From positions 1-26,507 of IMG/VR virus record IMGVR_UViG_3300005541_000020: a DNA stretch of 26,507 nt. One strand, written 5' to 3'. Origin of the DNA: a virus. A model generated the notes under the pieces. It searched no databases. It was not told the DNA's origin and saw nothing but the letters and a program-made list of their open reading frames with translations. Positions 6,490 to 26,507 of this stretch are shown one piece after another. The position numbers and the translations under genes were made by a program. Positions within the stretch are counted from its first letter, which is position 1; the number at the start of each line of letters is the position of its first letter.

Positions 6490-7971
6490 ATGGCCGGTAT
6501 CGATGCTAGCATCCCGCTCTCGTTTCAATTTCCGAAGCTGCCCACGGCTCAGGACGTCCAAGCCTATCAGCAAATGCAGTATCGGAACCAGCTGGCTCAG
6601 CTGCAGGTGGGCCAAGCTCAGGAGCAGGCTCAGGAACAGAACGCGCTGAAGGGGGTCCTGAGCGCGCCAGGAGCTATTGACCCGAGCACCGGGCTTCCGA
6701 CGCCCGCAACCGTGGGTAAGGTGACCCAAGCGAGCCCGGAGGTAGGGCTGAAGCTGCAGAACAGCCTGGCAGAGCTTCAGAAGACGAAGACTGACGCGCT
6801 TACCAACCTCATGCACCAACGGTTGCTGCAGCTGAACATCAACGATAACCAGGCCGACAAGCTCACGGACATCGCGACCCAGGCCCAGGTGCGGTATGAC
6901 ACGTTGGTGAAGCAGGGCACGAACCCGCAAGAGGCCCAGAAGATCGTCAGCGACGAGCGGAACAACGCCATTGACGACGCGGTGAAAGGTGGCACGCTCC
7001 TGCCTGAGCAGGGTCGCACGCTGCGGATCCCGTTTGACCCGAACGTCAACCGGGCGTTCATCGCAGGTTCGAAGCAGTACAAAACCATCCTTCAGGAGCA
7101 GCACCAGGCTGAGCAAGATAGGCTCGCTCAGGATCGCGAGAACCGGATCGCCGACGCCGAGACCGCCCGAGCCGACGCGGCGAAGGAAACGCCGTTCATG
7201 AAAGAGGCGGCCGAGACCTATGGCAAGGATACCCCCGAGTACAGGAAAGCGATCGCGGATCACCTGAAGAAGGAAACGGCAGGTACCGGTACCAGCGGCC
7301 CCATGGGGTCGCGTGAGGCTGTGTACGTGAACCGCGCCCTCTCGTCGGCAGGGCTGGCGGTGCGAGACATCTCAAACATCGCACGCGGTCCGGTGAGCCA
7401 AAGCTCCGGGATCTTCGGTGGTCGTGGCCAAGGCCCCTCGTTGCTTGATGCGACGAAGGAGCAACTGGCGAACAAGGTCACCTCTCAAGAGGCGCAGACG
7501 TACAACGTGAAGATCGCGGGCCTGCAACGGAACCTGGCCACGCTCGAGTCTCAAGGCTTGGCCCCGAGCGGCTCGTTGACGCACCAGATGGACGCGATCG
7601 TTTTCAAGGAAGGTGACACGAACCTGACGAAAGCGTACAAGCTAGCTGAGGCCCGGCAGATCGTGGAAGGTGCTATGGACGTGGTGACGAGTAATGACCG
7701 TGCCCCGCAGAGTGCCAAGGACCTGGCCGAGAAGATCGTCGGCAACGTGAAGAAGTCCGTCCCGTTCACGGTCGAGGACCTAGACAACTTCAGCAACTCG
7801 GGGAAGCCGAATGCAAAAATTGGAGATTTTATCGAAAAGGCTCCGAAAGGTGCTCAAGGTGGCGGAGTAGTTCCGACCGGCCTCCCCTCAGGATCGAAGA
7901 AGATCGGCCGTACTCCGGGTGGTAAAGATGTGTGGCAAGATCCGAATGGTAAGCGTTACGTGGAGAGTTAA
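6490..7971 (+). CDS. Ejection-type virion protein, helical and Gln-rich
   Basis: A 493-residue, mostly helical protein with long Gln/Ala/Glu/Lys stretches (QMQYRNQLAQLQVGQAQEQA near the start; QEQHQAEQDRLAQDRENRIA in the middle). It ends in a compact basic tail (GSKKIGRTPGGKDVWQDPNG). It has no signal peptide. Composition, size and position between two other internal-type proteins fit a P22 gp20/gp16-like ejection protein. The last 120 bases become less GC-rich, at the approach to the foreign segment in the next gene. The next ATG abuts its stop. Confidence 0.65.
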   Translation: MAGIDASIPLSFQFPKLPTAQDVQAYQQMQYRNQLAQLQVGQAQEQAQEQNALKGVLSAPGAIDPSTGLPTPATVGKVTQASPEVGLKLQNSLAELQKTKTDALTNLMHQRLLQLNINDNQADKLTDIATQAQVRYDTLVKQGTNPQEAQKIVSDERNNAIDDAVKGGTLLPEQGRTLRIPFDPNVNRAFIAGSKQYKTILQEQHQAEQDRLAQDRENRIADAETARADAAKETPFMKEAAETYGKDTPEYRKAIADHLKKETAGTGTSGPMGSREAVYVNRALSSAGLAVRDISNIARGPVSQSSGIFGGRGQGPSLLDATKEQLANKVTSQEAQTYNVKIAGLQRNLATLESQGLAPSGSLTHQMDAIVFKEGDTNLTKAYKLAEARQIVEGAMDVVTSNDRAPQSAKDLAEKIVGNVKKSVPFTVEDLDNFSNSGKPNAKIGDFIEKAPKGAQGGGVVPTGLPSGSKKIGRTPGGKDVWQDPNGKRYVES

Positions 7972-10806
7972 ATGGCCTTTCAAGTGTATGAAGGCGACGT
8001 GATTCCAGACGACAGCTCTCAGCTGGGGAACCCTGACGCCTTCAAAAAGGCTTATCGATCGGCCGCTGAGCGAGCAGGAAAAGAACTAGGGATTGATCCA
8101 AATGTGATCTTGGGGCAGTGGGGTGAGGAAACTAATTGGGGGAAGTCCATTATCCCAGGCACGAATAATCTTGGTAATATCAAAGGCTATGGAACGAAAG
8201 CTAAAGATAATCAAACGGGTACTACGGATTCTTATCGTAACTACAGATCTGCTAATGATTTTGCTGATGATTACGTCAAGCTGATTAAGAACAAATATCC
8301 GAGTGCTTTAAACGCCGGAAATGATGCAGCAAAGTTTGCTAGCGCGTTGAAGACAGGTGGTTATGCTGAGGATAAGCAATATGTGACGAAGGTAGTTGCA
8401 GCGTCAACTGCTGCTGCCCCAAAATTCATAACATACTCAGGTGATGTTGTTACGGATGACCAACAGCAACCGTCGCAGCAACCGGCTTCCTCGGTGGCCC
8501 CGCAACCGACCCAAGCTCAGGAGGACCTCCGTGGCCTGGGCCTCGGTGCCCGCGCCACGGTCGCGGGCGCGCTGAGCCCGCTGACGAGCCTCGGTGACCT
8601 GCTGAACACCGGTATCAACTACGGGATCAAAGGAGTCAACGCGCTTGGGGCCCACGTACCTGAGCTCCAGCTGCCGAGCCAGGTGACCCAGAACGCGTTG
8701 ACCTCGATCGGGCTCCCGCAGCCGGAGACCCCGACCGAGCGCGTGCTTAGTGACGTTCAGAGCGGCGCGGCGGGAGCGCTAACCGGAGGCCTGGCGGCAA
8801 GCAGCGCGGCCGAGGTAGCTGCGAGCCCTGCCGTGAAGAATGCACTGACGCAGCTCGGCTCTCACCTGACCGCTCAGACGGCTTCAGGCGCGGCTGGGGC
8901 GGCTTCGGCTGGGGTGACTCGCGAGCTCGGTGGGGGTCCGTTGGCGCAGTTCGTAGCAGGGTTCGCGGGCGGCGCGCTGCCGGCCACGCTCACGGGTTTT
9001 ACCCAATCGACCGACCGGGCAACCCGCAACGCGGGGGTGCTGCTGAAGAAGGCGCTGGCTGACAACTCCCCCGAGGACTGGAACAACGCTCGAAACCTGT
9101 TGACCGAGAGCCAGCGTCAGGGCGTTCCGCTCGTCGGGCCGGAGGCATTCCGTCAGGGTTCGAAGGTTCAGGAACTTGCTAGCCAGGTCTTCGCTTCGCC
9201 GCAGGGCGAGCAGGCCGTAGACGCAGCGCTTCGCGACCGGAACGCTCAGGTCGAGGCCACCGCCCGTCAGCAGGTCGGCAAGGTTGGCCAGAACGTCGGA
9301 GCCCAGGGAGCCGCGGACCAGGCCCAGGAAGCGGCGGAGAAGGTCGTCAAGAACGCTCAGGAGTACCGCACCGAGGCGGCAGGGCCGTACTATCAGGGGC
9401 AGCGCGCGAGCGATCAGGAAGCGGTCAAGCTCAGCGATCAGCTTGACACGCTCCCTGGAAAGATCGTGGACCTGACGAAGAGCGCAAACAGTGCTACCCA
9501 GGTAGCCGGGAAGCTTCACGCGTTCGTGAACGACCAGATCAACCGCATGAACCAATCGATCATGAAGGGCTGGTACAACAAGGATGGCAAGCTGGCGGTG
9601 ACGGACATTCGCGCCCGCCAGGCGGCCCGGTTCGAGGGCACCGCGGATCAGGCGAAGGGTGGGGTGTACGAGGCGATCAACCGGGCGAAGCAGTTACGGG
9701 CCCAGCTTGACGCCTCGCAGCGCCAGCTTGACCAAGCAGCGGACCAGTTGGCTCAGAAGAACCTGCCGGCGATCCAGGGCAAGGTCAACTCGTTCCTCAG
9801 CAACCTTGATCAGGACATCCGGCTGGCGGGGTACACCCAAGAAGGTAAAATCCTGCGCCAGTACCGTGATGAGCTGGCCCCTGGGGGCAAGCCCCTGGTG
9901 CTGCCGTCTCAGCTCGAGAGCGTGTACAAGGCGAACCGCAACAAGGTTTCGTTGAACCTGAACCCCACCGCGGAAGAAAAGACCACGGCAGGGGTGCTGA
10001 AGAACCACGTCAAGCAGCTCGACGGGCTCATCAAGGACGTTTCACCCTCGATCGCAGCCGGTCGTCAGGTTTACGAACAAATTAGCCGTGAGGTCGTTGA
10101 CCCGTTGCTCAAGAGCCCGGTGGGACGGATCGCGGGGCGCGGCGCTGACGCCCAGAAGGAATCAATCGCTTCGCGTGCGTTCGGTGAGCTCTCGAGCAAG
10201 AATGCGACGCCGGAACGGATCAGCTTCCTGGCTGATCAGCTGGGTCAGGTGGATAAGACGGCGTTCCCGAACTTGGTCCGATCGTACCTAGAGCAGAAGC
10301 TGAACGGCGCGCTAAAGACCCAGCGGAGCGGCACGCTGCCGAGCGCCGGGGTCAACTTGCGCGACGCGCTCGAGGGTACCCCGCAGGAACGGACGAACCT
10401 TCGTACCATGATTCAGAAGGTTGCGGAGGCGCAGGGCCAAGACCCGACGGCAACTTACGAGGGCTTCGGCCGCTTCCTCGACGTCCTCGACGCGACCGGA
10501 CGGCTCGGAGCGGTCAAGAAGCCTGCTGTGGACGTCGCGGGTCAAGCGGGGCGCATGGCCGTGGATGCGGCGCTCGAGCTGAAGAGCGCCGGAGCGAAGA
10601 CGGTGCTAAACTTCATGCGAGACTTCACCCGTCGGAAGGCCTATGCCAAGCTCGCTCAGGTGATGACGAGCCCGACGGCGGTTGATGACATGAGGGAGCT
10701 GGCTAACCTGAAGCCTGACGACCCGAAGAAGTATCAGCTCGCTGCAGCGGTGATCCGGTCCGCGCAGCAAGCTTCGAAACCATCTTATCCGGATGACGGA
10801 GAGTGA
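7972..10806 (+). CDS. Large ejection protein with N-terminal glucosaminidase domain
   Basis: A 944-residue protein. Residues about 22-142 match the FlgJ-type glucosaminidase domain: a helix with VILGQWGEETNWGKS (catalytic Glu probably E53), then NNLGNIKGYG, a YRNYRSANDFADDYV segment and a closing GGYAEDKQYVTKVV. This domain cuts peptidoglycan glycan strands, so it would open the wall locally during DNA entry, as T7 gp16 does with its own lytic domain. The remaining 780 residues are Ala/Gln/Leu-rich and helical, with a Gly/Ala hydrophobic stretch around 250-340, as expected for a channel-forming internal protein. The DNA for the lytic domain is markedly AT-richer than the rest of the gene. Confidence 0.8.
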   Translation: MAFQVYEGDVIPDDSSQLGNPDAFKKAYRSAAERAGKELGIDPNVILGQWGEETNWGKSIIPGTNNLGNIKGYGTKAKDNQTGTTDSYRNYRSANDFADDYVKLIKNKYPSALNAGNDAAKFASALKTGGYAEDKQYVTKVVAASTAAAPKFITYSGDVVTDDQQQPSQQPASSVAPQPTQAQEDLRGLGLGARATVAGALSPLTSLGDLLNTGINYGIKGVNALGAHVPELQLPSQVTQNALTSIGLPQPETPTERVLSDVQSGAAGALTGGLAASSAAEVAASPAVKNALTQLGSHLTAQTASGAAGAASAGVTRELGGGPLAQFVAGFAGGALPATLTGFTQSTDRATRNAGVLLKKALADNSPEDWNNARNLLTESQRQGVPLVGPEAFRQGSKVQELASQVFASPQGEQAVDAALRDRNAQVEATARQQVGKVGQNVGAQGAADQAQEAAEKVVKNAQEYRTEAAGPYYQGQRASDQEAVKLSDQLDTLPGKIVDLTKSANSATQVAGKLHAFVNDQINRMNQSIMKGWYNKDGKLAVTDIRARQAARFEGTADQAKGGVYEAINRAKQLRAQLDASQRQLDQAADQLAQKNLPAIQGKVNSFLSNLDQDIRLAGYTQEGKILRQYRDELAPGGKPLVLPSQLESVYKANRNKVSLNLNPTAEEKTTAGVLKNHVKQLDGLIKDVSPSIAAGRQVYEQISREVVDPLLKSPVGRIAGRGADAQKESIASRAFGELSSKNATPERISFLADQLGQVDKTAFPNLVRSYLEQKLNGALKTQRSGTLPSAGVNLRDALEGTPQERTNLRTMIQKVAEAQGQDPTATYEGFGRFLDVLDATGRLGAVKKPAVDVAGQAGRMAVDAALELKSAGAKTVLNFMRDFTRRKAYAKLAQVMTSPTAVDDMRELANLKPDDPKKYQLAAAVIRSAQQASKPSYPDDGE

Positions 10807-11267: not shown

Positions 11268-12608
11268 GTGAAGGTTCTCATCATCGATCCGGACTGCATG
11301 GGACTCGACCTGGCTTACCGCGCTGCGGAAGCCGGGCACGAGGTGCAGTGGTGGCAGAAGCCAGGCGAGGGCGGGCAGCAGCCCCGCGACGGCGAGGGCT
11401 TCCCTGGCCTCGTAAAGGTCAAAGACTGGCCGAAAGCCATGCTTTGGGTCGGGAAGACCGGGCTCGTGGTGAACATGTTCAACGATCGTGAGGTCACGGC
11501 GAAGCTTGACAAGTGGCGGCCGCTCAGCTGGCGGATCTTCGGCCCGAGCGTTAAGAGCATGGCGTTGGAGCACAACCGTGGCCTCGGCATGAAGCTCTTT
11601 GAGAAGTTTGGCTTCGAGGTCCCGGAGTATCAGACCTTTGCCACGCTCGACGAGTGTCTCAAGTACGCGTGGAAGTGTCAGGATCCCATGGTCCTGAAAC
11701 CCATGGGCGACGAAGAGGATAAGAGCCTGACCTACGTCGCGCACGACCCGGCGGACCTGGTGTCGTTTCTCGAGGCGCTCAAGGCTCGCGGAGCTAAGGT
11801 CAAGGGCCAGCTGATGCTTCAGCAGAAGGTTGACCTGCTGATGGAGCTTGGGGTCTCGGCCTGGCTCGGGCCCAACGGGTTCTCAGCGGCCCACAACGTC
11901 AGCGTCGAGTACAAGAAGCTGATGAACGAGAACTACGGGCCCTCGACCGGTGAGATGGGTGACCTGACGAAATACTACACAGACACGGCTGAGAGCGTCC
12001 TGTCTGACCACCTGCTCAGGTTCGAGGATATGTTGGTCGAGATGGGGCATGTAGGTGATTTTGCGATCGGCGGTGCGGTGACGAAGCAGGGCAAGTATGT
12101 GCCGTTCGAGGTCTCGGCCCGGTTCGGCTACCCTGAGATCTTCGCCTTCCTCCACTGTCACCGGTGCGACCCGATCGAGTGGATGAACGATGTCGTGGAT
12201 GGTCATGACAGCCTCGAAGTTGACGAGCGGCCTGCGATCTGCCTGGTCATGGCGAAGCCGCCCTACCCAGCCCCGACGAAGGATCACACCGAGGCCGTGG
12301 GTTCGGTGATCACCGGGATCGAGGAGGTGTGGGAGTACGTCTCACCCGCCGCGATGATGATCGAGGAGGGCCCGTGCTGGCGGAGCGGGAAGATTGTCAA
12401 AGAACCGGTCTATAAGACCTCGGGTCCGTACGTCTGCACGGTCACGGCGCAGGGTTCTGACGTCCACGACGCGATCGCCGAGGCTTACGCGGTCGCGGAC
12501 CGGATCAAGTACCAGGACCGGATCTTGCGCACAGACATCGGCAGGGACCTCGAGAAGCTCATCCCCAAGGCCAAGGCCCTGGGGTTCAAAGAGCTGCCTG
12601 ACTTTTAA
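11268..12608 (+). CDS. ATP-grasp ligase, PurD (GARS)-like
   Basis: A 446-residue protein with a GTG start preceded by GGAGG. The N-terminus is a Rossmann-like strand-loop-helix (MKVLIIDPDCMGLDLAYRAA). A central ATP-grasp fold follows, with a probable nucleotide-binding Lys (MVLKPMGDEEDKSLTYV, K144) and a distal metal-binding-type segment (VPFEVSARFGYPEIFAF, E281/R285). The latter matches the E-x-N-x-R-F-G-x-P-E motif of phosphoribosylamine-glycine ligases, with Ser in place of Asn. ATP-grasp enzymes join a carboxylate to an amine or thiol via an acyl-phosphate. A role in purine synthesis is doubtful this far from any purine gene; peptide or base modification is an alternative. Confidence 0.7.
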   Translation: MKVLIIDPDCMGLDLAYRAAEAGHEVQWWQKPGEGGQQPRDGEGFPGLVKVKDWPKAMLWVGKTGLVVNMFNDREVTAKLDKWRPLSWRIFGPSVKSMALEHNRGLGMKLFEKFGFEVPEYQTFATLDECLKYAWKCQDPMVLKPMGDEEDKSLTYVAHDPADLVSFLEALKARGAKVKGQLMLQQKVDLLMELGVSAWLGPNGFSAAHNVSVEYKKLMNENYGPSTGEMGDLTKYYTDTAESVLSDHLLRFEDMLVEMGHVGDFAIGGAVTKQGKYVPFEVSARFGYPEIFAFLHCHRCDPIEWMNDVVDGHDSLEVDERPAICLVMAKPPYPAPTKDHTEAVGSVITGIEEVWEYVSPAAMMIEEGPCWRSGKIVKEPVYKTSGPYVCTVTAQGSDVHDAIAEAYAVADRIKYQDRILRTDIGRDLEKLIPKAKALGFKELPDF

Positions 12609-19653: not shown

Positions 19654-19822
19654 AGAGGGCTCGGTTGATGTACTCTTCCACCCAGCGTTTATAAGCCACG
19701 TCCATGGTTAGACCGGTTCGGATGTGGCCGCTCCCGTAGACCACCCAGAACGGTGGCTGCGACTCGGTCCCACGCACCTGGCGCGCCTTCGGCTTGACGA
19801 CCTGTAGGTTTTGCTTGATCAT
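19631..19822 (-). CDS. Hypothetical 63-residue protein
   Basis: A small frame whose ATG overlaps the deaminase stop (ATGA). It starts with a basic stretch (MIKQNLQVVKPKARQVRG), followed by PPFWVVYGSG and a probable helix (MDVAYKRWVEEYINRAL). This could be a small beta-helix domain that binds nucleic acid or a partner. No family is recognised. The tight overlap on both sides supports it being a real member of the operon. Confidence 0.5.
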   Translation of the reverse strand: MIKQNLQVVKPKARQVRGTESQPPFWVVYGSGHIRTGLTMDVAYKRWVEEYINRALYGPPRTP

Positions 19823-20334
19823 ACGGGCTCCCGGTAGTGCTCCCAGTCACGGCCCGCTCCGGCCCAAAGCTTGTATGCGGCAGGAGCGGGGTATTCTTCG
19901 AGAAAAACGATCCGCCGGCACGAGGTGTTTAGGAGCAGCTTCGTACAGTGTACGCAGGGCGACGCGGTCACGTAAGCGGTGTCGACCTGCCAGACGTCGT
20001 GACACTGCAGCAGGGCGTTCATCTCAGCGTGGGTTGCGTAGCATTCGTCCAGGGCCGTGCCGCTCGGGGCTTGGGCCCCGGGACACGCGTAGGGGTGCTC
20101 GCTGGTACCAAATCCAACAAAGCCTGGCAGCAACGTGCCACCGTCAAATGAGGCAAACTTTTCCACCTCTTCGTTGCAATGAGGCTGCCCCGCCGCCACC
20201 CCGTTGTAGCCGGTCGCCAGCACGTGGCCCCTAGCGTCAAGCAGCACGCACCCGACCGCGCGACGGAGGCAGGTCGACCGCTGAGCGGTCAGCTTCGCGA
20301 CCCCTAGGGCCCAAGCGTCTCGTGAAGGTCTCAT
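19819..20334 (-). CDS. dCMP deaminase
   Basis: A 171-residue protein of the cytidine/deoxycytidylate deaminase family. Zinc ligands and the catalytic Glu are visible: H102-A-E104 (ATHAEMNAL) and C127-x2-C130 (SPCVHCTKLL). An internal stretch (residues 50-99) with further Cys and His residues resembles the insert that carries a second structural zinc in T4 dCMP deaminase. It converts dCMP to dUMP, the precursor of dTMP. The ATG at 20334 overlaps the stop of the TS-like gene (ATGA); a start 18 bases upstream would lie inside that gene. Confidence 0.85.
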   Translation of the reverse strand: MRPSRDAWALGVAKLTAQRSTCLRRAVGCVLLDARGHVLATGYNGVAAGQPHCNEEVEKFASFDGGTLLPGFVGFGTSEHPYACPGAQAPSGTALDECYATHAEMNALLQCHDVWQVDTAYVTASPCVHCTKLLLNTSCRRIVFLEEYPAPAAYKLWAGAGRDWEHYREPV

Positions 20335-21143
20335 TGGCCGCTCTCCCACCACCGCAAGCGGTCACCCTTCCCGCTCTGCCTCAGCAGCTCGAGCCTGAAC
20401 TTCAGTTGAGTTTCGTTCGTCCAAAGTGGTTCCGGCGTCTCGTACTGAGCGCTGTGAGCCTCGAGCGGGCTCAGGCACGCCAGCGCCTTGAGCCAGTTCT
20501 CCTCATACAGGTGGCTCGAGGCCGCCGTCAGGTAGAGCGTGCCCGGCTCGACGTAGTTCGGGCTCAGCGCCTGATCCGGCGCAGCGGTAGCCCGGTGCTG
20601 GTTCAGCCGGCAACAGACCAGGTGCGCCACCATTGAGAAGCTGAAGACGTCGTACGGCACGCCGAGCCACGCGTCCGACGACCGCATGAAGACGTGCAAG
20701 TTCAGCTTCCCGCCACGGAGCTTAAAGTCCATGGCCACGGTGCAGGGGTAATCCTTCGATGGGCCAGGGTTCCGGTCCCAAAGCGTCAGCACGGCTTGGC
20801 GCGTGTCAGGGTCGTCCAGCAGCTTCTTCACCACGTAGTCGAGCTGCTGGTGGATCCGCGGCCCGTAGGCCCCAGCAAGCGTTACGCCGTCGTCGCTGAA
20901 GTTACGCATCCGTGGCAGGTAGGGCTCGATCTCGACGAGCGCAGACCACCCTGAGAGGATCCAAAACGCCTCTGCGGCCATGCCGGTGTATGAGAGCTTG
21001 CGGCGTGGGTCCGTGAGCACGGGCCTGCGCAGCTCGATCTCGATCGTGGCCTGAGGCAGCTCCTTCGTCAGCTTACCGCGCGGGCTCACCTGGTCCCCGC
21101 CGAGCAGGATCCGGGCGAGCAAGGCACTCCAAACGTGGTTCAT
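20331..21143 (-). CDS. Thymidylate-synthase-family enzyme, predicted dCMP (hydroxy)methylase
   Basis: A 270-residue TS-fold protein with the catalytic Cys in DYPCTVAMDF (C134), phosphate-site Arg in PDTRQ, MRSSDAWLG (R154, D157), E58, and H211/Y213 in SSHLYEEN. The key difference is VPYDVFSFS: where thymidylate synthases have P-F-N, it has Asp (D165). In T4 gp42 and related enzymes this Asn-to-Asp change switches the base from dUMP to dCMP. Cys-Thr after Pro and MRS instead of QRS are also gp42-like. It may therefore hydroxymethylate or methylate dCMP using a folate cofactor. An atypical dUMP enzyme is the alternative. It is coupled to the kinase and deaminase genes. Confidence 0.75.
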   Translation of the reverse strand: MNHVWSALLARILLGGDQVSPRGKLTKELPQATIEIELRRPVLTDPRRKLSYTGMAAEAFWILSGWSALVEIEPYLPRMRNFSDDGVTLAGAYGPRIHQQLDYVVKKLLDDPDTRQAVLTLWDRNPGPSKDYPCTVAMDFKLRGGKLNLHVFMRSSDAWLGVPYDVFSFSMVAHLVCCRLNQHRATAAPDQALSPNYVEPGTLYLTAASSHLYEENWLKALACLSPLEAHSAQYETPEPLWTNETQLKFRLELLRQSGKGDRLRWWESGQ

Positions 21144-22063
21144 CCGAGCAACTCCTTCAAGAGCGTGACCAGTTCGTACGGCTGGCCGTGGTTAAACCGC
21201 TTGATGTACTGCGGGTGGGCCACCGCGTGGTGGTCGTAGCCCAGCTCCACGAGCTTCTTGTGGGCGACATCACCGAGCGCGATCACGTGGTCGTAGGTGG
21301 CAAGATTCGGGCCGCTGGTCCACGGTAACATATCGGCGTTGGCCCAAAAGAGCAACCACTCCGGGATCTCGCCGATGATCAGCTGCTCGGTGAGCCAGCG
21401 GCTGCACCCATGGCCCGAGAACGAGGCGAACGGCCACCGGTAGCTCAGGTCCCCGTCCTTCTGCTCCCCGAAGCTATCGCCGATCAGCGCCACCCTCCCG
21501 CTCCAGTGCCCAGCGGAGGCTACTTCAACCGCGTGCACAGGTGATCGAAAGTTATCCAAGATCTCGGGCAGGTAGAACCCGACCTGCTGGGTGTAGTCAT
21601 AGTCAACGATCGTCAGCTCGGTACGGAGGTCCATACGATAGTAACGGTTCACGTCCTCGACCTCGTCAGCGTGATCAAGGTACTCCTGACCCCTCCGGCC
21701 GAGCCAGTTCGCCACGCAGACCTCAGCGCCGGGGTCACAGCGGATCACCAGCGCCCCGCATGAGAGCGCCAGGCGCTCAAGCATCCGGCGGTGGATCGCG
21801 CCCACGCGGTCGCTGCCGTTCCGGTAGACCGCGCCGTATGGCTGCTCCGAGAGCCAGGAGCGATCCATGACCACGTCCTGATAACCCAGGACGGCCGGCA
21901 GCATGGCCTCGGCGTAGAACCGCGCGAGGCCCCCGCCCACCTGCGGGTAGGGTCCAGAGTGGACGTAGCGCGCGCCGGTGTGCTTCGCAAACGCCTGCGC
22001 CGCCGTGGTCTTGCCAGAGCCGTCGCAGCCCTCGAAGATGGTAACGGTTTTCCGGTTGCTCAT
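21140..22063 (-). CDS. dNMP kinase fused to a uracil-DNA-glycosylase-like domain
   Basis: A 307-residue two-domain protein. Residues 1-160 are a thymidylate-kinase-like P-loop domain: GCDGSGKTT (12-20), a DR pair in VVMDRSWLSEQPYG (D67-R68), and a lid-like LGRRGQEYLD. Residues about 188-290 follow the UDG superfamily order: VALIGDSFGEQ (motif-1-like), PFASFSG, LFWANAD, DHVIALGDVAHKKL, and AVAHPQYIKRF (the late H-P motif). Family-4-type UDGs show GEAPG-x2-E/Q, PF-x-G-x-x-G and HP motifs in the same order. The kinase half should phosphorylate a dNMP, perhaps a modified one. Whether the second half cuts a glycosidic bond or only binds a base is unknown. Confidence 0.7.
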   Translation of the reverse strand: MSNRKTVTIFEGCDGSGKTTAAQAFAKHTGARYVHSGPYPQVGGGLARFYAEAMLPAVLGYQDVVMDRSWLSEQPYGAVYRNGSDRVGAIHRRMLERLALSCGALVIRCDPGAEVCVANWLGRRGQEYLDHADEVEDVNRYYRMDLRTELTIVDYDYTQQVGFYLPEILDNFRSPVHAVEVASAGHWSGRVALIGDSFGEQKDGDLSYRWPFASFSGHGCSRWLTEQLIIGEIPEWLLFWANADMLPWTSGPNLATYDHVIALGDVAHKKLVELGYDHHAVAHPQYIKRFNHGQPYELVTLLKELLG

Positions 22064-22878
22064 CGTTCCACCCCGCCGATTGGGTTCTCAAGCGTATAAT
22101 CCGGGTTCGAACCATCACCGACGTCAGGCCCCAGACCGTGACAATTAGCTCCTAGCGGCGAGACGCCGGGGTTAAGCGCCAGCACGGTGGTCTCCCCACT
22201 GCTCTCGAATGTGCCACCGTTGGTTCGAACCGGCCCCTGGTAAGCCATGATCCCGCTGTCCTCATAATCCTCGTCGCGCCAGCAATGGTCGGGATGGTAA
22301 CCGGCCTCTCGCAGGATCTGGGTCGTCTGTGGCGGTACCCAGCCCTCGGGCTTGCCAACGTCGTGGGTCGTCCCACGGTGCGTAACCTTCGGCACCTTGG
22401 CCAGGTTGGCCCGCTGCACATCCTCCCAGAGGTCACGCCACGGGAGCCCGTACATCACCGCCGTGCCCTTGGCCACGTAGACGAGGTCAATCAGACCATC
22501 CGCGATCTCGTCCATATCATGCTTCAGCACGCCCTTCTCCCACCACTCTTTCAGCTCCTCTTGCATGAACTTGAACCGCTCCTCGGCCAGCCGCAGCGAG
22601 ATGAACGTCGGTTCAAAGTTGACGATCTGGTTGAACTTGGTGTGGAAGTGCCGGATGTCCAAGAACTCGGGGTCCTGGGTCCGGGCCGGAATCCCGATCG
22701 GGGTGCAGACGGCGTCCTCGGCGTACCAGCGCTTGCGCTCTTTGAGCGCGTTGCCATAGGCCACGATCACGTTGGCGGCGAACGCGGCCAAGATGAAGTC
22801 AGGGGTGTTGCTGTCCTGCTCGGCTGAATGCTTGTTGATCACGAGAGCGAGGTCATCGACGAAAGCTTGGGTTATCAT
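22060..22878 (-). CDS. MazG-like nucleotide pyrophosphohydrolase
   Basis: A 272-residue protein. Residues 15-52 match a small domain common in phage proteins (NKHSAEQDSNTPDFILA). Residues 95-150 carry the all-alpha NTP-pyrophosphatase signature: E108-x2-E111 (QEELKEWW) and E124-x2-D127 plus D131 (DEIADGLIDLVY), which bind magnesium. Members hydrolyse (d)NTPs to monophosphates; T4 dCTPase gp56 belongs to the same superfamily. In this operon a dCTP or dUTP substrate would make sense, but it cannot be read from the sequence. The last 90 residues (from about 180) are an unrecognised Gly/Pro-rich tail. Confidence 0.75.
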   Translation of the reverse strand: MITQAFVDDLALVINKHSAEQDSNTPDFILAAFAANVIVAYGNALKERKRWYAEDAVCTPIGIPARTQDPEFLDIRHFHTKFNQIVNFEPTFISLRLAEERFKFMQEELKEWWEKGVLKHDMDEIADGLIDLVYVAKGTAVMYGLPWRDLWEDVQRANLAKVPKVTHRGTTHDVGKPEGWVPPQTTQILREAGYHPDHCWRDEDYEDSGIMAYQGPVRTNGGTFESSGETTVLALNPGVSPLGANCHGLGPDVGDGSNPDYTLENPIGGVER

Positions 22879-23159
22879 ACGGGTATCCTTGGAGAATATA
22901 GGACTACTTCGGTTACAGAAAATTCACTGAACGTTGAACCCTTCACCGGGCAGCGAGCCGCCCACTTGGCAAGCTGTTGGCAATAGGCTTCGTACGCTTC
23001 ACCGGTGAAGGGGGTCCCGGGAGAGAGCTGCGGCTTCCGGCTACTGTGAAGTTGCAAACGCACCATGAGATGCTCAGCGTCCTCCTGGCGCTCGTACGCT
23101 CGGATCGGGTACGTCTGCTCGAACGGCTCACCACCTTCGACCAGCCAGATGGTTCTCAC
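22875..23159 (-). CDS. Hypothetical 94-residue protein
   Basis: A small protein with a GTG start overlapping the methyltransferase stop (GTGA) and a stop overlapping the MazG-like ATG (ATGA). It begins MRTIWLVEGGEPFEQTYPIR, followed by a helix (ERQEDAEHLMVRLQL), a Pro-rich linker and a second helix with two Cys. Short proteins with this YPIRAY...DAE pattern are frequent in phages without known function. The coupling ties it to the DNA-modification operon. Confidence 0.6.
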   Translation of the reverse strand: MRTIWLVEGGEPFEQTYPIRAYERQEDAEHLMVRLQLHSSRKPQLSPGTPFTGEAYEAYCQQLAKWAARCPVKGSTFSEFSVTEVVLYSPRIPV

Positions 23160-24223
23160 CAGAGCTCCTCCTCGCGCGCGTGCTCATCAGGGCCCTTCGA
23201 GAGGTCAACCAGCCGGTACTGCGGAGCCTTCAGCGGTCGTTGCTTTAAGCCCTCGGCCACGGCGGTCGCAAGCCAGCGGCCGACGGGCGGCATGACGGCG
23301 CGAGAGAGCTCAGCTGTGGTTGTAGAGAGCGAACTAGACGACGGAACCCAATCGACCGGAGCGCCGCAAAGCCTGAGATACTCAGCGTAAGTCAGGTATC
23401 GCGGTTCCGTGGGGTGCAGGGTTATAAGTCCACCCAAGATCACCTTAGACGGTCTGTCAGTACGAAGCTTCTTGACCAAGAACGACGGCGCGCCGCGGCC
23501 GGTGCGTTCGCGAAACGCTTGCTGATCCTCCCCCGAGAGGCCGTGAAACGCATGAAAGAGGTCGCGACCGTTGCCGGCAGCTTCCCAGAGCATCTTCAAA
23601 TCATCGTCGAGGTATTGCTTTTCGCTTTCTTTAGGCTTCAACCCCTTTAGAGCCTGGCCCACGGTTACTGGTTCCGTAAGCTCTGGCCAGACCAGCGGGT
23701 GCTTATGAGCGATCAGGAACATCCGCGGACGGATTTGCGGCACGCCCAGATACATGTTGTTCTGCAGTAAAACCGTCGCTGAGTAGCCGGCGTTAGCCCA
23801 CTTCTGAGCTTGCTCGATGACGAACTCATGACCATGCCGCCAGGCGTTGGTCACGGACTCCCAACACCAGGCTTTGGGTTGGATTACGAGCCCCGCTTCG
23901 ATCAGGTCAGGAGCCCAGCTTAACCTGGGATCTGGAGACTGCCACGCAGCCTTCGGCTTACCACGAGCCTGGCTCCAAAGCGCGCATGGCGGGTTCGTGA
24001 ACATGAAGTCCACCTTGCCGGTGTAGCGCGACGCGGGGCCGTCAGCACCCCAGTCGGTGACCTTGAGGTGCTGCTCGACCTCCGGGTGGTTCAGGCGCGC
24101 GGTCTTCGCCCCGTAGTCGGTATGCTCTAAGGTTCCCAGCACCTTGAACCCGGCCTGCTTGACCCCAGCGGTAAAGAGCCCCGCGAAGACGTCGCCCGCG
24201 AGAGCGGTGAGTTGCTTAGTCAT
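23156..24223 (-). CDS. C5-cytosine DNA methyltransferase
   Basis: A 355-residue protein with the ordered Dcm-type motifs: motif I (GDVFAGLFTAGVKQAGF), motif IV with catalytic Cys (TNPPCALWS, C80), motif VI (WCWESV, 120-124), motif VIII (GVPQIRPRMFLIA, 160-172), a short recognition region, motif IX (HPTEPRYLT) and motif X (SRAVMPPVGRWLA). It transfers a methyl group from SAM to C5 of cytosine in DNA. Motif VI has Ser where nearly all relatives have Asn (ENV). ATG 24223 is chosen over TTG 24226 because AGGAGG lies four bases upstream. No restriction enzyme gene adjoins it, so self-protection or base hypermodification is likely. Confidence 0.8.
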   Translation of the reverse strand: MTKQLTALAGDVFAGLFTAGVKQAGFKVLGTLEHTDYGAKTARLNHPEVEQHLKVTDWGADGPASRYTGKVDFMFTNPPCALWSQARGKPKAAWQSPDPRLSWAPDLIEAGLVIQPKAWCWESVTNAWRHGHEFVIEQAQKWANAGYSATVLLQNNMYLGVPQIRPRMFLIAHKHPLVWPELTEPVTVGQALKGLKPKESEKQYLDDDLKMLWEAAGNGRDLFHAFHGLSGEDQQAFRERTGRGAPSFLVKKLRTDRPSKVILGGLITLHPTEPRYLTYAEYLRLCGAPVDWVPSSSSLSTTTAELSRAVMPPVGRWLATAVAEGLKQRPLKAPQYRLVDLSKGPDEHAREEELW

Positions 24224-24807
24224 CAATCCTCCTGTATCATGAAAGCAGCGCGGTGCAGCAACCCCACGCCGGTGGTCATGTCAAAATCCGGGCCGCCCGC
24301 GTACCAGTGAGTACACTTGCTCCCGTCCTGGTCGACCAGCCTGATCGCGATCACCCCGACCCTCAGGTTCTGGTAATCAGGGTCGCCAGAATCGATCGTG
24401 CGTAGCAGATCAACCAGCGCGTCGCGGACCGAGCGTAGACTCGCACGGTTCTCGCGCTCTGCCCGCCGCTCCCCGAAGCTCTGAGGTATCCCTGCATAGC
24501 CGGGTTCGGCCTGGCGCTTAACGTCCTCCGCCAGGGCTTGGGCCACCGCTACGCCGACCAGTTGCTGAAGGTGAGTTTTGGAATAAAGCTCCAAGCTCAG
24601 GTTCAGATCGGCCATCGGAATCTTTCTAGCTACCGGTTCATGGGTGTCTAGCTTAATGATGAGCTCGCCCTCATCGGTTAAGAGGTCGTACACGCCGTTA
24701 GAGAGCCTGAAGGGCCGGCAGTAGTTCGCCAACGTCAGCAAGCGCTCGCACTCGGTTACCACCTGTGAGAAGGTCATCGAGTTGTGACGGGGTGGATAGA
24801 GGCTCAT
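24223..24807 (-). CDS. Hypothetical protein in modification operon
   Basis: A 194-residue soluble protein with an ATG overlapping the previous stop (ATGA). The N-terminal half is helix-rich (MTFSQVVTECERLLTLANYC) with a beta stretch (GVYDLLTDEGELIIKL). A charged helix follows (ERRAERENRASLRSVRDALV), then a beta-rich end with a single Cys and a YAGGPDFD motif. No known domain was recognised. It lies between the SAM methyltransferase and the C5-methyltransferase, with overlaps on both sides, so it is expected to be co-expressed with them. Confidence 0.6.
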   Translation of the reverse strand: MSLYPPRHNSMTFSQVVTECERLLTLANYCRPFRLSNGVYDLLTDEGELIIKLDTHEPVARKIPMADLNLSLELYSKTHLQQLVGVAVAQALAEDVKRQAEPGYAGIPQSFGERRAERENRASLRSVRDALVDLLRTIDSGDPDYQNLRVGVIAIRLVDQDGSKCTHWYAGGPDFDMTTGVGLLHRAAFMIQED

Positions 24808-25598
24808 AGGGCAGGCTTCCTACAAACCCACACGTTGTTCCGAGCGTGGTCAGGGTAGAGGGGCCCAAAGATGTTCGAGAGCGCGTCGTTGTCGTAATAC
24901 CGGGCCAACGCTTCCTTAACCCGCTTGATCGCGTCGCGCTCCTCCGGCCCTTGCGGGTACATGGTCGACTCCACCTTTCCGATGTGCTTCACATCCATGA
25001 AGGTTCCAAAACGTTGCTCAAGCTTGAACCTCGCTTTCTGCACCATCGCCTGCAGCTCCGGTACCACGTACTCGTGGATGTGGTTGGCTGCGTGGTGCTT
25101 GCCGTCGTAGACCGGCGTGCTCATGAGCATCATGCCGCCTGGCTTGAGCGCCTTGAAGCAGTTCGAGAGCAACTTCTTGCCGGCTTCAACCGGCATGTGC
25201 TCGATGATCTCAAAGTGCACCACGACGTCGAACCCCTCCGGGTGGCCGTCGAGCACCTTCCGATAGCCCCCGTTCGAGGCGAAGTCCGTCTCACCGTGCA
25301 ACGTCACGTGCTGGTTACCCTGCGGTTTCAGCTGGTTCAGGTCAACCCCGGTGTAGCTTGCCGCCAGCGGGCCGCCCGCGCTCTCGAAGAGGATCCGCTT
25401 CAGCGGTTGATCGACCCCGCAGCCTAGGTCAAGGACGTGGTCAGTCTTTTTGATAAGTCGCCGGGCGAATGACCAACGAAAGAAGTGAGCGGTGAAGTCC
25501 CTGTGAAGGGTGCGGGCAGCCCCGCCGTTTAGCCGGAGCGAGGTCTGGTCGAACTCGTCCGCGTCGCGCTTCTTCGCCCTGGTACCGTTGACGGGCAT
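24804..25598 (-). CDS. Class I SAM-dependent methyltransferase
   Basis: A 264-residue protein. Motif I HVLDLGCGVDQP (residues 54-65) and the acidic strand-2 end YTGVDLNQ (D86) form the SAM site. HFEIIEHM (128-135) and LKPGGMMLMSTP (151-162) are post-motif strands of the Methyltransf_11 type. An aromatic/His-rich N-terminal region (LHRDFTAHFFRWSFARRLI) precedes it. The substrate is unknown and need not be DNA. ATG 25598 is chosen because GGAGG lies just upstream; a TTG 12 bases earlier would absorb that site. It is the first gene of the overlapping minus-strand operon after a hairpin. Confidence 0.7.
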   Translation of the reverse strand: MPVNGTRAKKRDADEFDQTSLRLNGGAARTLHRDFTAHFFRWSFARRLIKKTDHVLDLGCGVDQPLKRILFESAGGPLAASYTGVDLNQLKPQGNQHVTLHGETDFASNGGYRKVLDGHPEGFDVVVHFEIIEHMPVEAGKKLLSNCFKALKPGGMMLMSTPVYDGKHHAANHIHEYVVPELQAMVQKARFKLEQRFGTFMDVKHIGKVESTMYPQGPEERDAIKRVKEALARYYDNDALSNIFGPLYPDHARNNVWVCRKPAL

Positions 25599-25609
25599 GT
25601 GAACCTCCA

Positions 25610-25639
25610 AAGTTAGAAAGGGGAGCCAGCCCGCTCCCC
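25610..25639 (-). terminator. Rho-independent-type terminator hairpin
   Basis: On the minus strand, just after the stop at 25666, a 7-bp stem (GGGGAGC / GCTCCCC, 25633-25639 with 25620-25626) encloses a 6-base loop. It is followed by a T-rich stretch (TTTCTAACTTT). It would separate the H1-like gene from the methyltransferase operon, perhaps only partly since no promoter is obvious between them. Confidence 0.55.
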
Positions 25640-25665: not shown

Positions 25666-26061
25666 TTACGCGGCCTTCTTGGCTTCCTTTGCGGCGGGCG
25701 GGTTCTTGCCCTTCTTGGCCAGATAGTTACGGTACCAGGCGACGTAAGAGCGCTTCTCATCGGAAAGCCCAAACTCTTTCTTGACCGCCGCGAAGATCTC
25801 GTCGTCAGTCAGCTTGCCCTCCATGATCAGCTCCTGGAAGCGGCTCGAGGCCGAGGGCCCACGCGGCACGGGGACCTTCTTCGCCGCCGGACCGGCAGCC
25901 GCCTTCTTCGCCGCCGGAACCTTCACTGCCGGCTTCTCGGCCGCAGCGGGCTTGGTCGTCGCCTTCTTCGCCGCCGGAGGGGCCGAGGCCTTTCCCGCAG
26001 CGTTCTTGACTGCTGGGGTCGGCTTCTTCGTACCTTCGGTCACGGGCTTGGCAGTAGCCAT
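25666..26061 (-). CDS. Probable internal in-frame product (131 residues) of the H1-like gene
   Basis: ATG at 26061 (MATAKPVTEGTKK) is preceded by AAGGAG with a six-base spacer, a better ribosome site than most in the window, yet no stop separates it from the upstream frame. It would produce only the Ala/Lys/Pro tract and the C-terminal helical domain. It may be the true gene, with the upstream reading frame running into it, or a nested second start. The sequence cannot distinguish these. Confidence 0.45.
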   Translation of the reverse strand: MATAKPVTEGTKKPTPAVKNAAGKASAPPAAKKATTKPAAAEKPAVKVPAAKKAAAGPAAKKVPVPRGPSASSRFQELIMEGKLTDDEIFAAVKKEFGLSDEKRSYVAWYRNYLAKKGKNPPAAKEAKKAA

Positions 26062-26507
26062 GTCATACTCCTTCTTGGTGATGTTAACGAAACGGCCCAG
26101 CTCTTTGAGGGCCTCAGGGGTAGCTCCGAGGTGGAGCGAAAACTGCACGTAGAGCTGAGCCGCCTTGGCGACGGGGTAGTCAGGCATCACGTGCAGAAAC
26201 TCTTCTTCAAACGTCTCAACGCCCGCCGTGAGGACGTCAAGCGAGCCATCGCTGAGCGGGATGTACCGGACCGTCGTTTCGGTGCGTCCCAGCTCCAAGC
26301 AGGTGTGGCGGTAGTAATCGGCGCGCACGACCGCGCCCTCCGTGGCAGGTTTCTTCGGTTCTTTCACGGTGACCTCGGTCAGGGTCGGTGGTTGGTCCAG
26401 GTAACGCTCGAGAGCGACGGCAACGTCTTTATCAGCCTTGGTCGCGATCGTGCGTAAGGTGTTTCGGAGCTGCAACGCCTGCTTCTCGGCTGTCGCGTCA
26501 GCACGAA
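25666..26507 (-). CDS. Protein with histone H1-like Ala/Lys/Pro tract (5' partial)
   Basis: The frame is open to the window edge, so the N-terminus is missing; 280 residues are visible. The first half (from ALERYLDQPPTL onwards) is a mixed, acidic, probably folded region. Then comes a low-complexity tract of Ala, Lys and Pro with AAKK repeats, like AlgP or histone H1 tails. The tract is followed by a small helical domain (FQELIMEGKLTDDEIFAAV, then AWYRNYLAKKGK) and a basic end. The C-terminal domain could bind DNA, with the tract as a linker. An internal ATG at 26061 has its own AAGGAG site, so a shorter second product is likely. Confidence 0.6.
   Translation of the reverse strand, partial: RADATAEKQALQLRNTLRTIATKADKDVAVALERYLDQPPTLTEVTVKEPKKPATEGAVVRADYYRHTCLELGRTETTVRYIPLSDGSLDVLTAGVETFEEEFLHVMPDYPVAKAAQLYVQFSLHLGATPEALKELGRFVNITKKEYDMATAKPVTEGTKKPTPAVKNAAGKASAPPAAKKATTKPAAAEKPAVKVPAAKKAAAGPAAKKVPVPRGPSASSRFQELIMEGKLTDDEIFAAVKKEFGLSDEKRSYVAWYRNYLAKKGKNPPAAKEAKKAA
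25875..25978. repeat. Three 17-bp direct repeats in the H1-like tract
   Basis: The sequence ccttcttcgccgccgga occurs exactly at 25875-25891, 25902-25918 and 25962-25978. On the coding strand each copy encodes the PAAKK-type unit. The identical DNA, beyond what the protein needs, suggests recent repeat expansion by slippage or recombination. Confidence 0.8.

Follow-up and report, generated by a model that had tools for sequence, protein, structure and literature searches.

A phage nucleotide kinase fused to a UDG-superfamily domain within a probable cytosine-replacement cassette

Introduction

Phages that have swapped cytosine for another base across the whole genome need to retain the correct modified pyrimidine and to shut out cytosine, uracil and deaminated by-products, and the policing of the uracil-type by-products is hardly known. 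The 26,507-base IMG/VR virus record analysed here, called the window over its whole length, raises the question of why a phage that probably belongs to this group should place nucleotide activation and base recognition on one polypeptide, as it encodes a dNMP kinase fused to a domain of the uracil-DNA glycosylase (UDG) superfamily.

The architecture is already in public records, where it is named 'thymidylate kinase' (gp315 of Bacillus phage G, gp29 of Stenotrophomonas phage AXL3) or left unannotated, and this label hides the UDG domain in dozens of phages, phage G included. Phage replication enzymes with an attached UDG domain are also already known, and no paper on a fusion with the kinase was found in the open-access literature. 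The statement of an earlier note on this DNA that no characterised protein of this kind was known still holds, therefore, within the open literature searched.

Results and discussion

One open reading frame encodes both domains

The fused gene spans positions 21140 to 22063 on the minus strand of the window as a single open frame of 307 amino acids, with an ATG start and zero internal stops, in the place and on the strand where the earlier note had put it. The kinase motifs quoted in that note were located at residues 12-20 (GCDGSGKTT) and 67-68 (DR), and those of the C-terminal part at residues 195-201 (GDSFGEQ), 211-217 (PFASFSG), 238-243 (LFWANA), 260-271 (VIALGDVAHKKL) and 282-290 (AHPQYIKRF). 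A C-terminal domain was likewise present, whereas the extent first given for it (21194-21502) proved too short, as the strands of the model begin at residue 183 and the domain thus covers residues 183-307 (21143-21517, minus strand). An assembly error or frameshift as the source of the fusion was ruled out, since the fused frame is likewise unbroken in about 40 independent phage contigs and isolates. The AlphaFold model of the full fused protein reached a pLDDT of 93.2 and a pTM of 0.92.

The gene overlaps both of its neighbours by four bases (ATGA): the stop of a MazG-like gene at 22060 overlaps the kinase start at 22063, and the kinase stop at 21140 overlaps the start of a TS homologue at 21143. 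These overlaps upstream and downstream suggest translational coupling within one operon.

The N-terminal part is a phage dNMP kinase

Residues 1-175 (21539-22063, minus strand) matched phrog_761, thymidylate kinase, with an E value of 4.6e-13. The P-loop, the DR motif and the TMPK-like fold place this part among the thymidylate kinases and phage dNMP kinases. In an alignment of 34 relatives, E11, G12, D14, G17 and K18 at the P-loop GCDGSGKTT (residues 12-20; 22004-22030, minus strand) were invariant, as were D67-R68 of the DR motif (21860-21865, minus strand; 34/34) and Y76, R81 and G83. The nearest solved relative in a profile search was YorR of the SPbeta prophage (2axp/3kb2; E 3.6e-10), and the Foldseek matches of the full-length model were thymidylate and deoxynucleoside kinases. 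Pfam Thymidylate_kin matched the window kinase weakly (19.2 bits, under the cut-off), and the dTMP kinase equivalog TIGR00041 gave 27 bits against an NCBI cut-off of 83.25. Judged by its sequence, this part is a phage dNMP kinase, with a substrate that the sequence does not fix.

The C-terminal part belongs to the UDG superfamily

When the C-terminal domain of the window was searched alone, it matched zero UDG models and nothing in Pfam or PHROGs, so that searches with a single sequence miss this domain. A profile built from 29 relatives and run against 177,635 PDB sequences retrieved 27 chains of family 4 UDG and UdgX with E values of 0.0012-0.014, and the first non-UDG chain appeared only at E 0.43; with 27 UDG chains ahead of any other PDB protein, this profile result is not a matter of chance. 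Pfam UDG (PF03167) was matched singly by 10 of the 29 relatives (best E 5.8e-6). Its cut-off of 24.3 bits was passed by the fused relative L049 (29.3 bits) and by phage G gp315 (48.2 bits), with no match for the window sequence, and L049 also passed the Pfam cut-offs for a P-loop kinase-type domain (AAA_28, AAA_33). A profile-profile comparison with the UDG domains of phage polymerases and of phage G gp315 gave a probability of 93%.

A fold search with the full-length model was filled by kinase matches, so the C-terminal domain was modelled separately with AlphaFold (pLDDT 87.4). All 34 PDB fold matches of this isolated domain at E<=0.001 were family 4 UDG or UdgX, and the next match beyond that set was a uracil-DNA glycosylase too. 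The TM-scores (TMq 0.55-0.62) and the large rmsd reflect a reduced form of the UDG fold, with about 125 amino acids compared to 190-210 in family 4 and with the loop region after the base-reading Asn lost. In six close pairs of relatives, dN/dS was about 0.03-0.15 over both domains and about 0.06-0.15 in the UDG domain, similar to the kinase, which points to purifying selection and argues that the UDG part is not decaying. The profile and structure comparison proposed in the earlier note thus led to family 4 UDG and UdgX, and profiles, predicted fold and intermediate sequences together support its claim of a dNMP kinase joined to a UDG-superfamily domain. The alternative reading of 'GDSF' as an SGNH-hydrolase motif was ruled out, as fold and profile matches were all UDGs and divergent members carry GEQP or GEAP.

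The neighbouring genes point to cytosine replacement

The TS homologue downstream of the fusion (20331-21143, minus strand; Pfam Thymidylat_synt E 4.1e-17) retains the Cys and is a putative hydroxymethylase or methylase of dCMP, being of the type that accepts this nucleotide. Its Asp165 (20649-20651, minus strand) stands at the position of E. coli N177 and was Asp in 58 of 58 aligned homologues. Asp at this position sets dCMP as the substrate (PMC8670742, PMC5175136) and, when a metagenome was selected for modified cytosine, told phage contigs with the modification from those without it (PMC8670742); the dUMP hydroxymethylase of SPO1 has Asn in the N177 region (PMC5175136). The Asp/Asn choice could not be used to tell cassettes with the fusion from those without it, as Asp was present in all. 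The product of the TS homologue would be either hydroxymethyl- or methyl-dCMP, two options that its sequence does not separate. In one record (L044, about 7290-8060), an in-frame intein-like insert, starting with CLAGSTEIW and ending with AHN, splits the TS homologue just before the catalytic Cys.

The window further encodes a dCMP deaminase (19819-20352, minus strand; Pfam dCMP_cyt_deam_1 E 3.7e-19, phrog_174 E 5.7e-40), a MazG-like NTP pyrophosphatase (22060-22878, minus strand; PRA-PH E 9.9e-12, phrog_671 E 4.6e-22) and a class I SAM methyltransferase (24804-25610, minus strand; Methyltransf_23 E 4.7e-11), the last of which is syntenic at about 50-66% identity in most relatives. Across records the fusion adjoins the Asp-type TS homologue, and the dCMP deaminase and MazG-like pyrophosphatase are mostly present too; some records without a MazG-like match carry a gene of the dUTPase_2 type. 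The order in nearly all relatives is conserved protein, SAM methyltransferase, in some the C5 methyltransferase, MazG-like pyrophosphatase, kinase-UDG, TS homologue and dCMP deaminase. ThyX was detected in 12 of 40 records, AXL3 and PW916 among them, and where it is present the TS homologue can be given over to dCMP. A trimeric dUTPase was found in none of these 40 records and dUTPase_2 in eight, and neither clearly sorted the cassettes by presence of the fusion.

T4 gp1, gp42, gp56 and cd are the dNMP kinase, dCMP hydroxymethylase, dCTP pyrophosphatase and dCMP deaminase of one pathway. The window cassette corresponds to this set, although the sequence families differ, and T4 gp1 has, to our knowledge, no UDG domain. 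AXL3 holds the same cassette as the window, at 43-60% identity. Only two of 37 restriction enzymes cut AXL3 DNA, both at sites made of A/T only, whereas the other 35 failed, every enzyme with G/C in its site among them (PMC7504290). The dCMP-type TS homologue, the cassette genes and the restriction resistance of AXL3 make cytosine replacement very likely, and the gene set is very probably a T4-like cytosine-replacement cassette in which the kinase would serve as (hydroxy)methyl-dCMP kinase. The supposition of a modified-dNMP context for the fusion is thus backed by the adjoining TS homologue and by the DNA of AXL3.

Other genes of the window deserve mention. A protein without assigned function (25666-26475, minus strand) accompanies the cassette in most relatives, as does the SAM methyltransferase, and both are candidates for a further base modification. 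A C5 cytosine DNA methyltransferase (23156-24226, minus strand) is present in a minority of relatives, though the cassette should already fill C5. Among the virion genes lies one whose product, judged by eye, looks like an ATP-grasp, GAR-synthetase-like protein (11268-12608, plus strand).

Distribution of the fusion

The fusion was found in forty-odd phage records, about 40 of them IMG/VR contigs. Full-length relatives with a name were AXL3, Pseudoxanthomonas phage PW916, ctUtU524, Actinomycetia phage DSL-LC01 and, remotely, gp315 of Bacillus phage G. Bacterial genomes gave one full-length relative, on a contig of a Gallionella MAG, and three kinase-only matches, and plasmids gave zero relatives. 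AXL3 gp29 and the proteins of PW916 and ctUtU524 resemble the window protein over their full length (43-45% identity) and lie in the same gene order; the genes of PW916 and ctUtU524 are unannotated, and the UDG domain of gp29 is absent from the AXL3 paper (PMC7504290).

Phage G gp315 is also one protein, of 331 amino acids, and passes the Pfam cut-offs for both parts (Thymidylate_kin 28.9 bits against 27, UDG 48.2 bits against 24.3). Encoded beside it are an alpha-glucosyltransferase, a dCMP deaminase and a TS homologue that has Asp where E. coli has N177. It differs from the window protein in its remote sequence relation, in an AQNPG motif 1 and in a domain that looks closer to ordinary UDG. 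The region of phage G at 229500-236500 (L077) has the appearance of a compact cytosine-modification cassette, comprising alpha-glucosyltransferase, kinase-UDG, dCMP deaminase and Asp-type TS homologue; we are not aware that modified cytosine has been reported from phage G.

The same cassette with a kinase without UDG domain was found in close relatives (L036, L039-L041, L047, L048 and L054), so these work with the kinase alone and the UDG domain is dispensable. The kinase tree, which has many long branches and a bootstrap not fully settled, calls for about ten changes of the UDG state in total, at least three of them on well supported branches. Judged from this tree, gain or loss of the UDG module has occurred repeatedly. 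No separate UDG-like ORF was found with the family profile in the kinase-only phages, and three of 14 kinase-only records carry a UDG domain fused to DNA polymerase A (L078, 1013-3541; L079, 613-3138, minus strand; L080, 353-2911, minus strand). In 29 records, PF03167 gave no second UDG beyond the fused gene, with most fused genes themselves falling below the sensitivity of this model. AXL3 gp55 (L082; AXL3 41742-42221) belongs to DUF1643, which we take to be a family with a UDG-like NPS motif, and it may be a second UDG-like protein.

A UDG-superfamily domain is likewise attached to a phage DNA-synthesis enzyme in SPO1 gp31 and PaBG gp205, where, in contrast to the window, the partner is DNA polymerase A instead of a nucleotide kinase. 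Such a domain on DNA polymerase A has been reported for PaBG (PMC7412058), and SPO1 is an hmU phage. This recurrence on polymerases, together with the repeated gain or loss, would agree with a module that docks to DNA or the replisome and positions the kinase at the fork, without any base chemistry. We consider that decidedly improbable, as docking alone leaves the conservation of F212, N242 and H283, described below, unexplained.

Pocket residues are kept and catalytic features are missing

The window protein shares with family 4 UDG (Tth UDGa) and UdgX the fold, the motif order, the Phe/Asn/His pocket and the motif 2 Arg, and it differs from both in being compact and kinase-fused and in lacking the Fe-S cysteines, N89, K83/K94 and the R-loop His of UdgX. 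The uracil pocket of Tth UDGa consists of E41, G42, E47, F54, N80 and H155, with the water positioned by N89 (PMC5387724), and the residues used by UdgX are E52, F65, N91, K94, H178, R184 and H109 (PMC10359453, PMC10776899). In the alignment of 34 relatives, motif 1 (GDSFGE in the window, 21464-21481, minus strand; GExPG in family 4) showed Gly at 195 in all 34 and Glu or Asp at 196 in 31. The base-stacking Phe of P211-F212 (21428-21433, minus strand; F54 of Tth UDGa, F65 of UDGX) was kept in 33/34 and the base-reading Asn, N242 (21338-21340, minus strand; N80 and N91, respectively), in 32/34. Motif 2, HPQYIKR (21197-21217, minus strand), includes H283 (H155/H178) and R289 (R184 of UdgX), with His in 33/34, Pro in 34/34 and Arg in 32/34. 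The Phe, Asn and His of the family 4 pocket are hence present as F212, N242 and H283 in 32-33 of the 34 sequences, and the pocket residues are kept in relatives down to about 20% identity. Divergent members have GEQPN (L049), GEAPN (L043) or GEQPH (L028) as motif 1. We infer that the domain still binds a pyrimidine.

Other features of family 4 were absent. Its GE(A/G)PG motif 1 is GDSFG in the window protein, with the Pro replaced by Phe; K202 stands in place of Glu47, N89 has no Asn equivalent, and K83 corresponds to M245. Family 4 UDGs require four Cys for their Fe-S cluster, and residues 183-307 contain a single one. Similarly, compared to UdgX, motif 1 is GDSFG instead of GEQPG, and no R-loop with the nucleophilic His109 was seen, the region being shorter. 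The Lys next to the base-reading Asn (K83/K94) is replaced by Met or Gln in the phage family; in UDGX, K94A is inactive (PMC10776899). One fused relative (L028, 5947-6918), that with GEQPH, has Asn instead of the motif 2 His (DNPRTHRR) and is possibly catalytically dead.

Proposed role of the UDG domain

The reading that we prefer, to which we give slightly less than an even chance, is that the cassette replaces cytosine, the kinase acts on (hydroxy)methyl-dCMP and the UDG domain is a uracil-type quality-control glycosylase. The kinase domain would, like T4 gp1, phosphorylate the hydroxymethyl- (or methyl-) dCMP made by the TS homologue, and the MazG-like pyrophosphatase would lower dCTP and perhaps dUTP. 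The UDG domain might then bind uracil-type bases, either uracil or deamination-derived hydroxymethyl-uracil, as by-products of the pathway, and might excise them from freshly synthesised phage DNA, cleaving the N-glycosidic bond via H283, in such a way that the supply of the modified nucleotide and the removal of the wrong pyrimidine could lie on one chain. A glycosylase was chosen for two reasons. The Asn that reads uracil, the catalytic His and the Arg that contacts DNA are all retained, the last being the counterpart of R184, which helps DNA binding in UdgX (PMC10359453), and similar domains occur on phage polymerases. It was kept below an even chance because of the missing catalytic features: N89, K83/K94 and the motif 1 Pro are gone, and the domain is in addition small and dispensable.

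The combination of a conserved pocket with the loss of N89, K83/K94 and the motif 1 Pro is also what might be seen in its main rival, a sensor that no longer cleaves but regulates the kinase on binding a pyrimidine ligand, be it a base or a nucleotide (dUMP, dTMP or the hmdC product). The fixed fusion to a metabolic enzyme and the modelling of both domains together at high confidence fit such a sensor, which we nevertheless regard as rather unlikely, given that the His (33/34) and the Arg (32/34) are kept and neither is obviously needed by a sensor.

Mononucleotides could alternatively be the substrate. The dCMP deaminase of the same operon can supply dUMP, perhaps hmdUMP, beside a broad dNMP kinase, in phages where the trimeric dUTPase is lacking from all 40 records, and the domain could hydrolyse dUMP or hmdUMP and thereby leave the kinase to supply the correct pyrimidine alone, as a UDG-fold counterpart of DNPH1. 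The same chemistry is performed by DNPH1 on hmdUMP and, at a slow rate, on other dNMPs (PMC10483697), a structure of UdgX with dUMP exists (6ajp), and the residue that blocks C5 in Tth UDGa, E47, is Lys in the window protein. We hold this editing role to be improbable: R289 suggests DNA, and a phage in which the deaminase feeds ThyX could not do without dUMP. UDG enzymes, moreover, act on DNA and are not known to act on mononucleotides, and the fold of DNPH1 is unrelated.

The bases that enter the pocket may extend beyond uracil. With K202 at the position of E47, which blocks C5 substituents, there may be room for a pyrimidine substituted at C5. Brig1 and Brig3 have been described as divergent UDG-superfamily members that act on hmC-type phage DNA (PMC13160076); these differ from the window protein in serving bacterial defence, with modified phage DNA as their target, and in having no kinase fusion. 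Since Brig3 is reported to read 5hmC (PMC13160076), hmC itself may be the ligand of the phage domain.
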